NCBI RefSeq assembly: GCF_008330225.1
Contig: NZ_CP042466.1
Location: forward strand, 3,838,001-3,902,000
Origin: Geobacter sp. FeAm09
GTDB taxonomy: Bacteria > Desulfobacterota > Desulfuromonadia > Geobacterales > Pseudopelobacteraceae
Reading direction: 5' to 3'
Length of the DNA: 64,000 nucleotides
The notes beneath the pieces are model-generated. The model did not search any database and was not told the DNA's origin. It worked only from the letters and a program-made list of their open reading frames with translations. This document shows, in pieces, positions 28,566-35,055 of the stretch (position 1 is its first letter; each line of letters opens with the position of its first letter). The position numbers and the translations under genes are program-made.

Positions 28566-28581
28566 TGCAAAAAGCGTACCC
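28566..28581 (-). promoter_or_regulatory. Sigma-54 promoter upstream of flgB
   Basis: On the minus strand the bases read GGGTACG-CTTT-TTGCA. The GG and GC dinucleotides are ten bases apart, as RpoN requires, and TTGCA is a perfect -12 element; the -24 element matches consensus TGGCACG at five of seven positions. The expected start is about 30 bases before the flgB ATG. The rest of the 210 bp spacer could hold activator sites; none was recognised. Confidence 0.7.
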
Positions 28582-28733: not shown

Positions 28734-30860
28734 CTACCGCTTGGCACTCCCCAGGTCCAACGACTCGATGGCCTGTTGCGCCAGCCTTTTCCAGTCATCG
28801 TCCTTGCCCTTTTTCACCACTTGCTCGAAATAGGAACGGGCAACCTGCTTCTTCCCCTCCTGGGCGGTGATCTCCCCCGCCTTGTAGAGAAATTCGTCGT
28901 TGCGCTCGTTATCGGGCAGCTTTATGCCGGCGTCAAGTATGCGCAGGGCCCCCTTGCGGTCTCCCGCCGCCAGGCGCGCCGAGGCCGCCACGTAGTAGGC
29001 GTCGGGCAGCAGGTGGACATCCTTCGCATCCCGGCCGGCAGCGGCAATATAGAGATCCATGGCCTTGCCGGCCTGGACGGTCCCCTTCTGTTCCCACAGG
29101 GAACGGCCGAGATAGTAGTAGCTCTCGCTCCTCTGGGCGTGCTCCTTCTTGTTGAGCAGCCACAACAGGGTGTCCCGGGCCTCCTGATATTTTCCCCCCA
29201 GGAAATACACCCCGCCCAAGCGCTCCAGCATGAGCCGCGCCCGGGGATGGGTGGGGTATTTGCGCAAAAAGCTGCGCAGGGTCTTCTCGGCCAGGACGCT
29301 GTCCCCCAGGAGATCCGCATTGGAAGCTATCTCCTCATAGAGATAGGGTGCATTGGCCCCCACCCATTGGTGGTCCAGGAGGGTACTGAAAAATTTGATC
29401 AATTCGATGGGCCGGCCCGCCTCGTCGTAGGCCTTGGCCACATTCGGGAGGAAATCGGGCGCCTCCATGCAGGCGGCCAGGTAGTCCTGGTGCTCCTCCA
29501 CAAACCTGATCAGCCCCGGAGCGTCCTTGCCCCAGTTGTTTTCGTGGTACACCTGGGCAACCAGCACCTCCCGGATGGTCCGGCACACGGTGACATAGAC
29601 CCCGCGCGGGAACCGCTTCTGGAACGAAACGACCTGCTGCAGGGCGTCGGACGCCTCACCATGAATGGCATGGAGCAGGACATGTTTGAACAGGGCCTCC
29701 TCGCGCATATCCACATCGCTGCTCTGGCGCGAGATGTTCAGGTAAAGATCGCTCAGGCGCTGGTAGTCCCACGGGGAGGTGCGGAGAAAATCGCGGTCGG
29801 CCAGACGCAACTGCGCCATCTGATTGGCCTTGTTGTCCGGGAAGTTGTCGGCAACCGTGCGGTAGATGGCCAGGGCTTCCCGGTCGTGCCCCTGGCGCGT
29901 CAGGATATCGGCCAGGCGCACCAGCAGGGTCGGGGCGTACTTCTTGTCGGCAAGCCGGGCGATCAGGCGGGCAAGGAGCACCCGGGCACCGGCCAGGTCT
30001 CCGCTGCGGGCGATACTGTCCCCGTAATAAAACGTGACGCTCGGATTGAAGGTCAGAAACGCCGGCCAGATCTTTTCGGCTTCGCGAAAGGCGGCCAGGG
30101 CCTGGGGGTACTTTTGCAGCTTGTACCACGTCTCGCCAAGCCGGTAGAGCGCCAGCGGCCTCACCGCGCTCTGCCGCCCGGCAAACTGGGTGAAGGCGTC
30201 CTCGGCTTCGGTCAGGGGCCCCTTGTAGAGCGCCGCCTCGGCCGCCATAAAGGCCTGCTGGTCGCTGTCGCTGAGGATATTCTTCAAAATCTGCCGGTCG
30301 GTCGGCACAAAGGGGATATCCGTTTTCAGCGGCGGATCGAAATCCCGCACCAGCTTCTCCACGCCGTTCCAGATTCTCTCACGGCCGGCAATGAACAGGC
30401 GGGGAGGCGCCGGGGTGAACTTCTTGCCCACATCCAGGGCAATGGCGCAGGTGCCGTCCACCGTCGCATCGCGCCATCCCGTCCCGGGAGCCGCCTGAAA
30501 CGTAACCCGGAGGTCCGTCCCACGCCGGGAGAACAGCAAGCCGCCGATGCTGGTATCCGAATAGCGCCGATACTTGTGGAAAAGGGGGCCGTCCGTGTCC
30601 TGGAGCGTGAGCCGCAACCGGTTGCCGGGCAGCGACACGACGGAAAACTGCGGGTTGTCCTTGAGGCGCAGGATGATGCGGGTATACCCCTGCTTGGGAC
30701 GGATATCGACCCGAAAGACCCGGTTGGGGATGGAGGCCTGGGCCGGCGCCGGAAGCAGCGCCGCAACGGCACAAACGGCCGCCAATGCCAGCGGCAGGGC
30801 CGCTTTCGCCACCATCACGCCGCGCGTCAGCGCACCTATGCCGTACCGATAAGACAACAT
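28734..30860 (-). CDS. AMIN-like and TPR-repeat exported protein of the flagellar locus
   Basis: About 708 residues. A signal peptide (ALPLALAAVCAVAALLPAPAQA) is followed by an AMIN-like beta domain (YTRIILRLKDNPQFSVVSLP, NRLRLTLQDTDGPLF) and then many tetratricopeptide repeats (ALYRLGETWYKLQKYPQALA, LLVRLADILTRQGHDREALA). This suggests a periplasmic scaffold that may touch peptidoglycan or a secretin-like partner. An ATG at 30860 with GGGGGGA upstream is chosen; a GTG at 30893 overlapping the upstream stop is an alternative. Exact function unknown; it is cotranscribed with chemotaxis-type genes. Confidence 0.75.
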   Translation of the reverse strand: MLSYRYGIGALTRGVMVAKAALPLALAAVCAVAALLPAPAQASIPNRVFRVDIRPKQGYTRIILRLKDNPQFSVVSLPGNRLRLTLQDTDGPLFHKYRRYSDTSIGGLLFSRRGTDLRVTFQAAPGTGWRDATVDGTCAIALDVGKKFTPAPPRLFIAGRERIWNGVEKLVRDFDPPLKTDIPFVPTDRQILKNILSDSDQQAFMAAEAALYKGPLTEAEDAFTQFAGRQSAVRPLALYRLGETWYKLQKYPQALAAFREAEKIWPAFLTFNPSVTFYYGDSIARSGDLAGARVLLARLIARLADKKYAPTLLVRLADILTRQGHDREALAIYRTVADNFPDNKANQMAQLRLADRDFLRTSPWDYQRLSDLYLNISRQSSDVDMREEALFKHVLLHAIHGEASDALQQVVSFQKRFPRGVYVTVCRTIREVLVAQVYHENNWGKDAPGLIRFVEEHQDYLAACMEAPDFLPNVAKAYDEAGRPIELIKFFSTLLDHQWVGANAPYLYEEIASNADLLGDSVLAEKTLRSFLRKYPTHPRARLMLERLGGVYFLGGKYQEARDTLLWLLNKKEHAQRSESYYYLGRSLWEQKGTVQAGKAMDLYIAAAGRDAKDVHLLPDAYYVAASARLAAGDRKGALRILDAGIKLPDNERNDEFLYKAGEITAQEGKKQVARSYFEQVVKKGKDDDWKRLAQQAIESLDLGSAKR

Positions 30861-30889
30861 ACTGGCATCCCCCCGACCGTCACGGACCG

Positions 30890-31984
30890 TCACTGCACCG
30901 GCGGTTTGCAGAACCTGCGCACCTTGGCGACCAGTTCCTCTTCGCTGCAGGGCTTGATGATAATCTCCCGGGCTCCGTATTTCAATGCCTTCAGGACGGC
31001 CGTCCGGGTCCAGCGCTGAGCGCTCATGATGATCGGCGGCGGGGAGTTCTGGCGGATGGCATTGACCTTGATGCAGACCGCCAGCTCGTGGTCGTTCGCA
31101 TCCTGCGAACCGATCAGCACCAGCCGCACGTTGCGGCCGGAGAAGAGCTCCTTGATGTCGGCATTGAGCGTCCCCTCAACCACTTGGTAACCGGTCACAG
31201 CAGCCGCCGTCACCATCTGGTGGCGTGCGTCGTTGTCATCCTCCAGCACCACGACGCTGTCGATCCCGGCCTCTGCCGAGCCGGGCTCCTCTTCGGGGGA
31301 GGGGGCGACCCCCTCGCCGGCCTTGGCTTGCGGCGGCACCGCGGCATCCCCCACCTCGGCGGGCGCGGGGGGCTCCTCCTCGACGGGGGGCGCGGGCGGT
31401 TCCTCGCTGGGAGGGTCGAACTGGTTGCCCAGGCCGACGGGGATGAGCACGTCCAGATAGTTCAACTCCTGGTCCGGCATCTCCAGCTTCGAGCGGAACA
31501 TTAGGTAGTCGCCTTCGGGAAGCGGCTCGTTTTCGCTCAATTCATCGATTTCGGGGATGAACTTTTTGGGCGAAAGCAATTTCAGATGCACCTTGTTGGG
31601 AAGGCTGCCCTGAAAAACGGTGTTGAACGCCCCGTTGATCATATTGGCAATCTCGGCAAAGGCATCGATGTCATCGCTTTCGATGATGCAGAGACGCTTC
31701 TTCTCCTGGATGCGTGCCGGCGGGATACCCAGCAGGATGCTGCTCATCACGATGGCGTCGCGCAGGGAGAACAGCAGGTAAAACTGCCCGGTGTAGGCCT
31801 CCCGCGACTCGACGCCGATCACGAAGCAGGCATCCTCGAGGCCGCCGAAGTAGGAAGTCTTGCTGGTAGTGAGAGAATCAGAGAGGGCAATGGCGAGCTC
31901 CTGCCCCAAAAGCATGCCGCTTTCCTCACCAGCCTGCTTCAGGGCAGAGGCCAACATCTCATGTAGCGTGGTATATCCATCCAT
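30890..31984 (-). CDS. CheC/CheX-like domain fused to a degenerate receiver domain
   Basis: A 364-residue protein. The N-terminal part contains DAFAEIANMINGAFNTVFQ (near residues 107-125), a CheC/CheX/FliY-type motif. A Pro/Glu-rich linker spans about residues 190-240. The C-terminal 120 residues fold like a response-regulator receiver with acidic LEDDND, the IIMSAQ strand and the IIIKPC lysine. The phospho-acceptor Asp expected at the end of beta 3 is replaced (LVLIGSQ), so normal phosphorylation is unlikely. Probably a motor or CheY-P-binding adaptor; the next genes are cheX and cheY. Confidence 0.75.
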   Translation of the reverse strand: MDGYTTLHEMLASALKQAGEESGMLLGQELAIALSDSLTTSKTSYFGGLEDACFVIGVESREAYTGQFYLLFSLRDAIVMSSILLGIPPARIQEKKRLCIIESDDIDAFAEIANMINGAFNTVFQGSLPNKVHLKLLSPKKFIPEIDELSENEPLPEGDYLMFRSKLEMPDQELNYLDVLIPVGLGNQFDPPSEEPPAPPVEEEPPAPAEVGDAAVPPQAKAGEGVAPSPEEEPGSAEAGIDSVVVLEDDNDARHQMVTAAAVTGYQVVEGTLNADIKELFSGRNVRLVLIGSQDANDHELAVCIKVNAIRQNSPPPIIMSAQRWTRTAVLKALKYGAREIIIKPCSEEELVAKVRRFCKPPVQ

Positions 31985-32054: not shown

Positions 32055-32561
32055 TCAGTCTTCTTTCTTGAGGGTGAGCCCGACGAGAAACCTGTTGTCG
32101 TTGACTTTGAACGGGATAACGACACAGTCGATGTCGGAGAGTGAATTGACGGTATAATCTTCGCCGGAAATAACCGTGGGGATCGAGAGCTTGACGTCCA
32201 TCCCTCCCTTGGAAAGCACCTGCTTTACGCTTCCCCCCAGCATATTGGCTATTTCACCGATGGCGTCGTTCAAGTCCTCGTTGGCCTCCTCGCATTCCAT
32301 GCCCAGCATGCTGGAGGTGATCTGCAGGGCCAGGGCGACCGGGCAGTGGATGGAGATCACCCCCGAATAGATGCCCGCAAACCCCACCATACCGGTGATG
32401 CTGCATTGAAAGCGATGAATCGGGTCCTTGAGGGGATAGTCGTCCTCCGGGTCCATCATGACCATGGTGGAGAAGACGTCCTTGGTGGCATCGATGACGT
32501 ACCGGGCAAGCTGCTCTTCCGTAAACCTGGCAGTGCCGGCGATGTCGGCGTTAAGGCTCAT
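32055..32561 (-). CDS. cheX: CheX-type CheY-P phosphatase
   Basis: A 168-residue protein of the CheC/CheX family. The active helix shows DAIGEIANMLGGSVKQVLS with the Glu-x-x-Asn pair used by these phosphatases, and one such helix supports CheX rather than CheC. YSGVISIHCPVALALQITSS is the family beta-alpha segment. It overlaps cheY by four bases, fitting a role in resetting CheY-P in the cytoplasm. Confidence 0.85.
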   Translation of the reverse strand: MSLNADIAGTARFTEEQLARYVIDATKDVFSTMVMMDPEDDYPLKDPIHRFQCSITGMVGFAGIYSGVISIHCPVALALQITSSMLGMECEEANEDLNDAIGEIANMLGGSVKQVLSKGGMDVKLSIPTVISGEDYTVNSLSDIDCVVIPFKVNDNRFLVGLTLKKED

Positions 32562-32923
32562 ATCAGCCCCCCCAGTTTTTCCTGCAACTGCTCGGGCGTA
32601 AAGGGCTTTTTGATGCTGTCGCTGGCACCGCTCGCGATGGCTTCCTTGAGGATCTCTTCGCCCCCCTCCGTGGTGATCATGACGATCGGGACGGTGTTGC
32701 CGTTGGCCCTGACCTGCTTGATGAACTCCAGGCCGTCCATGTTGGGCATATTGATGTCGGAGAGGATCAGCGTAACCGGCTTGCCGGAGGCCAGCACGCT
32801 CAGCCCTTCAATGCCGTCGCCGGCCTCGTATATTTCATCGACCGCCAAGCCGGCCTGCCGAAGCGAACGCGAAATGATCTTGCGCATTGTGGAAGAATCG
32901 TCAACGATGAGTATATTCGCCAT
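32558..32923 (-). CDS. cheY: Chemotaxis response regulator CheY
   Basis: A 121-residue stand-alone receiver. Acidic pair Asp8-Asp9, phospho-acceptor Asp56 (LILSDINMPNMDG), Thr84/Thr85 (VMITTEGG) and Lys105 (SIKKPF) are all present, so it should be phosphorylated and bind FliM. GAGGAGG lies about eight bases before the ATG. It is the first gene after the riboswitch leader. Confidence 0.93.
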   Translation of the reverse strand: MANILIVDDSSTMRKIISRSLRQAGLAVDEIYEAGDGIEGLSVLASGKPVTLILSDINMPNMDGLEFIKQVRANGNTVPIVMITTEGGEEILKEAIASGASDSIKKPFTPEQLQEKLGGLI

Positions 32924-33086
32924 GCCAGTAATCCTCCTCTTTCAAGTATCCCGTTGGGCTTAGAAATTACGTGAATGTGCACGTGGGAACTTAATACCAT
33001 AAAAACGATAAAATTCATCCAAATTTTATCATGTTTCTAATCTTGGAAATGGGGTTGCGGCATTCCGCGGCGGCAGGACGTGCACA
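32924..33086 (-). other. Leader between riboswitch terminator and cheY
   Basis: A 163 bp AT-rich untranslated stretch with no convincing gene. On the minus strand it holds a nine-base perfect stem GATAAAATT/AATTTTATC followed by GTTTTTATGG, and a small ACGTG/CACGT inverted repeat further on. Either may affect RNA stability or translation of cheY; neither is a typical GC-rich terminator. Confidence 0.4.
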
Positions 33087-33127
33087 ATGAAGAAAGCCTA
33101 CCCAGATAACCGCAGTAGGCTCTTCAT
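33087..33127 (-). terminator. Intrinsic-terminator-like hairpin of the riboswitch expression platform
   Basis: On the minus strand ATGAAGAGCCTAC and GTAGGCTTTCTTCAT form a stem of 13 pairs with a two-base bulge and a loop of 13 bases. The GC-rich GCCTAC/GTAGGC core is followed by TTTCTTCATT, which makes it terminator-like. It begins 12 bases after the riboswitch aptamer ends and lies before cheY, the arrangement of transcription-controlling riboswitches. Confidence 0.7.
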
Positions 33128-33138
33128 CATGAACCGAG

Positions 33139-33226
33139 AACCGATCTTATAACCCCTCTTTCCAAGACAGTATTGGACAGGTGGCTTTGCGTCACACGGT
33201 TGCCCATGCTTTGCCCTCTGATGGCC
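33139..33226 (-). promoter_or_regulatory. GEMM-I (cyclic di-GMP-I class) riboswitch upstream of cheY
   Basis: Minus-strand RNA shows the two invariant GEMM blocks: AGGGCAAA (33210-33217) and ACGCAAAGCC (33183-33192). Between them CAUGG-GCAA-CCGUG forms the P1b-type stem with a GNRA tetraloop (33195-33208). A second stem UCCAA/UUGGA and GGGGUU follow, and outer AUC...GAU pairing closes the element, giving about 88 nt, the family size. At the position of Vc2 G20 there is a G, which favours cyclic di-GMP over cGAMP, although Geobacter has cGAMP-sensing members. Confidence 0.87.
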
Positions 33227-33247
33227 GATTTGCAATTGTGGTTCACT

Positions 33248-33277
33248 GATATAAAAAATAATCTGGCGATATGTCAA
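33248..33277 (-). promoter_or_regulatory. Sigma-70-type promoter of the riboswitch-cheY transcript
   Basis: On the minus strand a perfect -35 TTGACA (33272-33277) is followed by 18 bases and TATATC (33248-33253); TTATAT with 17-base spacing is an equally good reading. Transcription would start about 15-20 bases before the riboswitch aptamer. It lies 68 bp after the phosphomutase stop. Confidence 0.65.
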
Positions 33278-33344: not shown

Positions 33345-34753
33345 TCAAATCGCCGCCAGGACCTCCGCCGCACGCAGCAACCGGTCCACCTGTTCCCGGG
33401 TCCCGGCCTCGCTGTAGAGCCGCAGGACCGGTTCGGTGCCCGAAGGACGGATCAGGAGCCAGTCGCCGTTCTCGAAGATGAACTTGAAACCGTCGCTGAA
33501 GTTGGCGGTGGCCACCCGACGGCCGTCGATCTCGGCCGGCGGGGCCGATTTCAGGCGGGCAATGAGCCGTTCCTTGGCGTCGTTCCCGATACGCCGGTCG
33601 ATCCGGCGATAGGAGAAGTGCCCGATCTCCTCCATGGTTTCGTCAAGCAGCTGGCGCAAACCTTTGCCGCTGACCGCCATGGCCTCCAGAAGCAAGAGCC
33701 CGAGCAGGATGCCGTCCCGTTCCGGGATGTGTCCCTTGACGCCCAGGCCGCCCGACTCCTCGCCACCCATGAGGATATCCTCCGCCAGCATCAGCTCGCA
33801 GATATGCTTGAAGCCGATGGGGGTTTCAAACAGCGGCAGGTCGTATTTCCGAGCCAGCAGGTCCACCATGCGGGTCGTGGAAACGGTCTTGACCACGCCG
33901 CCCCGCAACTGTTTGTGCTCGATGAGATGGCGCAGGATAACGGTAAAGATGCAGTGGGACGAGAAGAAATCGCCGTTTTCGTCCACCGCCCCGATCCGGT
34001 CGGCGTCACCGTCCAAAGCCAGCCCGACCCGGTATGCCCCCCCTTGAGGAGCGCCGAGAGTTCCGCGAGATGTTCGCCGATCGGCTCGGGAGGCTGCCCC
34101 CCGAAGGAAGGATTCTCGCTGTTGTGGATCTCGTGGACCCCGGCCAGCAGGCGGGGGAGAAAACCCGACCCGGCGCCGTACATCGGATCGACCACGACCG
34201 GGATGCCGGCCCTGGCGATCAGTTCCAGGTCTACGTAGCGGCCGATCTGGCGGAAATACCCCTCGCAGGGGTCGAATATCTCGATGAGCCCCTTCTCCAG
34301 GGCCTCGTCGAAGGGGATAGCCACCACGCGGCGATCGTTGGCCGCATTGAAGGCAACGATCTCCTCCAGCACCTTCGTGGTGGCGGGGCGGGCCGAGCCG
34401 CCGAATGCCTCCTTGACCTTGAACCCATTGTATTCCGGCGGGTTGTGGCTCGCCGTGATCATGACGCCCCCTGCGGCACCCGACTCGCGAACCGCCCACG
34501 ACACGGCCGGCGTGGGCGCATAGCCGTCGGTCAGGCGGACCCGGATGCCGTTTCCGGCCGCCACCTCGGCCACGCGCCGGGCGAAATCGCGGGAAAGAAA
34601 ACGCCGGTCATAACCGATTACCAGCCCTTTGTCGCCCAAGCCGTCGCGGTTGAGATAATCCATGGTGGCCTGGGCCACCAGGGACAGGTTGTCGAAGGTG
34701 AAATCACGGGCAATGACCCCGCGCCAGCCGTCGGTGCCGAATTTGATCTGCAT
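33345..34753 (-). pseudogene. Phosphoglucomutase/phosphomannomutase, frameshifted in a G7 tract
   Basis: An alpha-D-phosphohexomutase of about 469 residues if repaired. The ATG at 34753 starts MQIKFGTDGWRGVIARDFTF. The catalytic serine loop is VMITASHNPPEYNG, the metal loop LALDGDADRIG and the phosphate-binding loop RPSGTEP, so all catalytic parts exist. The frame breaks at a C7 run (34037-34043) just before the metal loop; one extra G joins the halves. It interconverts hexose 1- and 6-phosphates for cell-surface sugars. Substrate cannot be decided. Confidence 0.88.
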
Positions 34754-34782
34754 GTTTCCTCCTCGGTATGAAAAACTATCTT

Positions 34783-35055
34783 TCACTGCCGTTCCTGCTC
34801 GATTCCGTACAGCCACACCAGCACCTCGGCCACGGCGCGGTACAATTCCGGCGGGATGAACGCATCGGTGTCCACCTGCATCAGCAGGTTGACCAATTCC
34901 GGCGACTCATGGACATAGACCCCCGCTTCGCGCGCGCAGGCGATGATCGCCTCGGCCATCACCCCCTTGCCCCTGGCGACGACCACCGGGGCGTAATAGC
35001 CCTGCTTGTAGGTCAGGGCTGCAGCGCGGCGCTCTTCGTCCTTACGGGATTTCAT
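34783..35055 (-). CDS. FhlB: stand-alone FlhB C-terminal-like protein
   Basis: A 90-residue protein that matches the C-terminal cytoplasmic part of FlhB: RRAAALTYKQGYYAPVVVARGKG, then VMAEAIIACAREAGVYVHES and FIPPELYRAVAEVLVWLYG. The self-cleaving NPTH motif is missing. Such small proteins (FhlB, YlqH) often pair with a FliK-like gene (YlqG), as here, where the two overlap by 14 bases. A role in export switching is likely but unproven. Confidence 0.85.
   Translation of the reverse strand: MKSRKDEERRAAALTYKQGYYAPVVVARGKGVMAEAIIACAREAGVYVHESPELVNLLMQVDTDAFIPPELYRAVAEVLVWLYGIEQERQ

Follow-up and report, generated by a model that had tools for sequence, protein, structure and literature searches.

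The cheY leader and the genes behind it

The window analysed here is the whole 64-kb stretch of DNA. On the minus strand, where all features of the window described below lie, a TTGACA promoter is followed by a GEMM-I aptamer, then by a terminator-like hairpin, 165 nt of further leader and cheY. An earlier sequence-only reading had described this arrangement, with two GEMM-I blocks and a GNRA stem as parts of the aptamer, and every part of it was found in that order. The host is a soil bacterium of the genus Oryzomonas (Geobacterales); one of the compared genomes, G002, is Oryzomonas japonica. Members of this genus reduce iron, are motile and bear peritrichous flagella (PMC7285026). The cheY gene (32558..32923, ATG at 32923) encodes a 121-aa receiver (Pfam PF00072, E 1.8e-27) and is preceded by a Shine-Dalgarno sequence, AGGAGG, at 32938-32933. 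It overlaps by 4 nt with cheX (32055..32561; 168 aa; Pfam PF13690, E 4.7e-28), and cheX is followed by genes for a 364-aa protein with a C-terminal receiver domain (30890..31984; Pfam) and a 719-aa TPR protein (28734..30893; Pfam), then by flgB (28523-28101), flgC and fliF. The sequence-only reading had named the controlled genes cheY-cheX-(CheC-receiver)-(AMIN/TPR); cheY, cheX, the receiver and the TPR protein stand, while the CheC part (faint similarity to CheX/CheC, E 0.027) and the AMIN domain (E 0.06) are marginal. That control might extend from flgB onward, as had also been suggested, now appears unlikely, since flgB carries a putative sigma54-type -24/-12 promoter of its own, the GG-N10-GC element GGTACGCTTTTTGC (28567..28580). 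This element is housed in the 211-nt gap ahead of flgB, and a similar sequence is found before flgB in G002 and G001. On the other side of the leader, a phosphoglucomutase/phosphomannomutase gene (33345-34816) is split in two frames near 34040, at a six-G run, and the same gene is a single intact 469-aa frame in O. japonica (L049:842-2251); the split is either a real frameshift or a sequencing error.

The Rfam covariance model RF01051 (c-di-GMP-I/GEMM-I) matches 33225-33145 over its full length with 49.5 bits, well above the gathering score of 35 bits (E = 1.1e-6 in a search of the full 64 kb with 4227 families), which bears out the family assignment made earlier. At the Rfam cut-offs no other match was observed in the window. 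From this match, the consensus fold of four orthologues and a census of the ligand pocket, the aptamer was placed at 33139..33226, with the GEMM-I blocks AGGGCAAA at 33217-33210 and ACGCAAAGCC at 33192-33183 and a GCAA loop capping the stem at 33203-33200. In the consensus fold the P1 helix pairs GGCCAUC (33226-33220) with GAU-C-GGUU (33146-33139), its first pair being C33220-G33146. The conserved GEMM-I core is present in sequence, consensus fold and census: G20, A47, a GNRA loop on P2 and a three-helix fold. These features, together with the P1/P2/P3 layout, are shared with the reference GEMM-I aptamer, Vibrio cholerae Vc2, from which the cheY element differs by C92 to U, C93 to A and, on the 3' side, a P1 helix that starts two nucleotides farther outward. 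The GCAA loop and the P3 receptor had been singled out as unusual, but both are common to sister elements in the same genome. No two-sided covariation was detected in the aptamer among the four orthologues. Three further Oryzomonas genomes carry orthologues in the same position, so the element is more than a chance match; judged by sequence and predicted fold, it is a genuine GEMM-I riboswitch of the ordinary kind.

Terminator, promoters and direction of switching

The terminator-like hairpin (33125-33089, GAAGAGCCUAC..GUAGGCUUUCUUC) pairs AGCCUAC with GUAGGCU, is followed by UUUCUUC, a weak U tract, and is predicted to fold with about -15 kcal/mol. It begins 13-22 nt past the aptamer and reuses no aptamer strand. 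Its 13-nt loop TGCGGTTATCTGG (33114-33102) is identical in four of four intact orthologues, and part of this loop may extend the stem. Upstream of the aptamer, promoter P1 (33248..33277) has its -35 hexamer TTGACA at 33277-33272 and, after an 18-nt spacer, the -10 hexamer TATATC at 33253-33248; TTATAT, at 17-nt spacing, is an alternative -10. A simple promoter/terminator scanner made no call in the cheY leader, because the best -10 has no T at its last position and the loop of the terminator exceeds the length that the program accepts.

A second promoter-like element, P2 (GATAAAATTTGGATGAATTTTATCGTTTTTATGGTATTAA, 32991..33030, with the extended -10 TGGTATTAA), was found by cross-lineage alignment between the terminator and cheY, about 70 nt before the gene. 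P2 aligns across Oryzomonas and six other lineages, in which it stands directly upstream of cheY with no riboswitch. It is thus probably an extended -10 promoter that is older than the riboswitch and gives a basal, riboswitch-independent supply of cheY. With P2 located behind the terminator, the transcript from promoter P1 is probably the only one under riboswitch control, and the switch would modulate cheY-cheX rather than gate it; the direct gating of cheY proposed by the sequence-only reading is hence not upheld.

In order to place the expression platform, we compared it with those of other GEMM-I elements. Across this comparison, most terminators that follow A20-type and GCC-type aptamers take up 14-15 nt of the 3' strand of the aptamer, while behind AGAGGGG-type aptamers the terminator is mostly a separate one, with a 5' arm complementary to that strand; the automatic terminator finder misplaces some hairpins, such as that of L007, where it picked an overlapping one. 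These two layouts are those of pilM (ON) and Cd1 (OFF) (PMC9262584). Three sisters of the same genome and aptamer type, L005, L006 and L008, have separate terminators and predicted antiterminator duplexes of -13 to -15 kcal/mol, and inspection of the sequence of a fourth, L007, gave a separate GGCCCG/CGGGCC terminator. The cheY group has a weak predicted antiterminator duplex (-5.8 to -10.1 kcal/mol). Whenever the leader is folded to equilibrium the terminator wins over it, and in pre-terminator transcripts the terminator 5' arm pairs with varied upstream partners. A search for a strong thermodynamic antiterminator thus turned up none but weak, varied pairings. The cheY element nevertheless probably has the OFF layout, a direction that we infer from the separate terminator and from the likeness to OFF-type GEMM-I elements, including the sisters in the same genome.

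The opposite direction, in which ligand binding favours read-through into cheY, seems unlikely. The A20 (cGAMP) and GCC-type GEMM-I elements of the same genome do carry ON-type terminators, the predicted antiterminator is weak, and Bacillus Bc1 shows that the behaviour of GEMM-I can be unexpected (PMC11218506). However, a hairpin that does not reuse the aptamer strand makes the usual ON mechanism unavailable, and the closest elements of the same genome carry the OFF layout. Behind the terminator, and so contained in the read-through RNA only, the spacer segment AACCCCAUUUCCAAG (33042..33056) could pair with the 3' strand of the aptamer, CUUGGAAAGAGGGGUU (33166-33151), in a predicted duplex of -24.1 kcal/mol. 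None of 500 shuffles gave as good a duplex in the host, compared to 13/500 in G002 and 11/500 in G005; the complementarity is present in these two genomes and absent in G003.

Distribution, conservation and loss

GEMM-I elements are widespread in the order, with at least one in 136 of 141 genomes, and the host genome, a single contig of 4.10 Mb, has 18 copies. Intact orthologues of the cheY element precede the same cheY in G002, G003 and G005, giving four genomes with the host. Among these, 80% of the aptamer columns and 85% of the hairpin columns are invariant, against 14-42% in the neighbouring spacers, and the third codon positions of cheX and cheY are invariant at 58-68%. Taken together, aptamer and terminator reach 82%; the spacers next to them have 32% (Fisher p 8e-18), the third codon positions of cheX 58% (p 1e-5). 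On this comparison, aptamer and terminator are under purifying selection in the four genomes.

The cheY-cheX pair itself is conserved across the order. Outside Oryzomonas, no GEMM-I element was found beside cheY in Rfam scans of 60 cheX loci or in a core-pattern scan of 65. Within the genus, G001 has a decayed copy in which GACGCAAAGCC has become GGTGCCGAGACGC and the hairpin is broken; this copy gives no Rfam match even at E 1. In G004 both aptamer and hairpin are gone, and the TTGACA promoter is retained, fused close to cheY; P1 is kept in all Oryzomonas leaders, including this riboswitch-less one. In the cheY-cheX tree, G001 and G004 are grouped together (100/99) beside the intact G003 (91/92), and the other three intact genomes form the sister group (83/85). 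The simplest account would be one gain in the Oryzomonas ancestor, then erosion in one clade. In one genus, control by a c-di-GMP riboswitch would then have spread onto a response-regulator/phosphatase pair at the core of chemotaxis, to be lost again in a sub-clade. The leaders would form a natural series for the gain and discard of a riboswitch: no switch, intact, decayed, and excised with the promoter left behind.

A rival reading is that the element is losing its function, with weak coupling, the ancestral promoter doing the work and the riboswitch a lineage-specific addition that is being discarded. The decay in G001 and excision in G004, which are sister genomes, are consistent with this, as are the unusual pocket, the weak antiterminator and the position of P2 downstream of the terminator. 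We consider it rather unlikely, however, since in the four species with an intact element both aptamer and terminator show much higher conservation than the spacers or the third codon positions.

Ligand pocket and proposed mechanism

By Vc2 numbering, the pocket positions of the cheY aptamer are G20 (33215), A47 (33188), U92 (33149) and A93 (33148). C92 provides the Gbeta contact and C93 the first P1 pair; both are usual, not obligatory, in the GEMM-I family. G20, U92 and A93 are all found in four of four cheY orthologues. In order to see how common such a pocket is, a census of 107 elements of the order was made from the Rfam match ends, leaving out L189, which had been read on the wrong strand. 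The sample is not random, as it was drawn from the best-scoring matches and, for ten genomes, mostly from G20-type elements. Position 20 reads G 77 times and A 30 times; at position 92 there are 92 elements with C, 12 with U, two with G and one with A; and 103 elements have C at position 93, the exceptions being the four cheY elements. The idea that U92 is unique to the cheY element was ruled out, for eight other G20 elements of the order carry it, each with C93. U92 is thus a natural variant, and A93 is peculiar to the Oryzomonas cheY group among the 107 elements.

The specificity of the pocket can be viewed against published mutants. Positions 20 and 92 set the specificity of Vc2, of which a G20A/C92U mutant binds c-di-AMP (PMC7288161), and in a Geobacter aptamer A20G changes the ligand from cGAMP to c-di-GMP (PMC6456294), while A47 is more conserved than both G20 and C92 (PMC9049102). 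No affinity value for the C92U single mutant was found in the literature searched. The sequence-only reading had taken G at position 20 to favour c-di-GMP. A G is indeed there in all four orthologues, not the A20 that marks GEMM-Ib, but it is not decisive alone given U92, A93 and the score of the variant model RF03168 (c-di-GMP-I-UAU). This score, 50.8 bits, is comparable to that of RF01051 and lies under the model's own cut-off of 65.9; the RF03168 consensus shares A47 and U92 with the cheY aptamer and differs from it by U20 in place of G20 and C93 in place of A93. U92 and A93 may lower the affinity for c-di-GMP or shift recognition to another ligand. The most likely ligand is c-di-GMP, though it is not a settled one, with U92 and A93 standing beside G20 and A93 unique to this orthologue group.

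A ligand other than c-di-GMP, e.g. 3',3'-cGAMP bound with its G facing G20 and its A facing U92, or a broadened specificity, is rather unlikely. The constancy of U92, the unique A93, the RF03168 score and the Vc2 and Geobacter mutants would fit with it, and nine A20-type elements in the host genome make cGAMP signalling plausible there; against it, the eight other G20 elements combine U92 with C93, so that U92 may be a tolerated G-U contact, and both the U20 of the UAU variant and a score at its cut-off are lacking. More specifically, that the G20/U92/A93 pocket reads the mixed dinucleotide 3',3'-cGAMP in the orientation opposite to that of the known A20 riboswitches, or reads both messengers, is very unlikely; if true, it would make the element a distinct GEMM-I specificity variant linking chemotaxis to the cGAMP network. 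The changes at 92 and 93 also allow the strictness of GEMM-I ligand recognition to be tested directly.

We favour as fairly probable a class I c-di-GMP (GEMM-I) OFF switch that acts on the P1 transcript and modulates part of cheY-cheX transcription. The transcript would start at the TTGACA promoter. At high c-di-GMP the aptamer would fold, its P1 helix would hold the 3' strand GAUCGGUU, and the separate AGCCUAC/GUAGGCU hairpin could form and stop transcription. At low c-di-GMP the aptamer 3' strand (GGGGUU and/or GGUU) would pair with AGCCU in the terminator 5' arm, and RNA polymerase would continue through cheY-cheX into the next two genes. P2, if active, would add a basal level independent of the riboswitch, so that the switch modulates cheY-cheX rather than gates it. 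The RF01051 match, the kept G20 and A47, the purifying selection in four species, the hairpin that does not reuse the aptamer, the sisters L005, L006 and L008 (L007 by inspection) and the Cd1 precedent argue for the OFF switch, and the alignment across seven lineages for the part given to P2. The weak antiterminator, the folds in which the terminator wins, the lack of covariation, U92/A93 and the poor U tract speak against it.

The messenger c-di-GMP governs the choice of bacteria between attachment and swimming. Control of motility genes by GEMM-I is established, and Cd1, before the flgB operon of C. difficile, is a c-di-GMP OFF switch (PMC4744006, PMC6200980). Like Cd1 (Cdi-1-3, Clostridioides difficile; PMC4744006, PMC6200980, PMC9262584), the cheY element has a GEMM-I aptamer, a separate terminator, a motility target and an expected OFF direction. 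Unlike Cd1, it targets cheY-cheX and not a flagellar operon, carries U92 and has a second promoter-like element behind the terminator; furthermore, the direction of Cd1 is experimentally proven, that of the cheY element read from sequence. With the cGAMP (GEMM-Ib) riboswitches of Geobacter (PMC6456294, PMC8835794) it shares the Rfam family and the order, and nine A20-type copies exist in the host, but it differs from them by G20, by a terminator that does not reuse the aptamer and by chemotaxis targets, compared to cytochromes and secreted proteins. In the open-access literature, to which the search was confined, no description of GEMM-I on cheY-cheX in Geobacterales was found.

In the host genome, L007 and L008, of the same aptamer type, precede chemoreceptor genes, and L006/L243 (G000:C1:968058-968136, minus strand) precedes a gene for a Cache-HAMP-PAS-PAS-GGDEF diguanylate cyclase, where it could possibly form a feedback loop on c-di-GMP synthesis. 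The cheY switch thus belongs to a chemotaxis/c-di-GMP subset. Two further observations were made on other GEMM-I elements. L001 (G000:C1:2391292-2391372, minus strand), which stands in tandem with L004 in the host genome, reaches the c-di-GMP-I-UAU cut-off with 67.6 bits despite G20 and C92. In G001, the elements L178, L188, L198 and L207 have A20 with an otherwise c-di-GMP-like core, AGCAAA, where the usual A20 type has ACTAAA.
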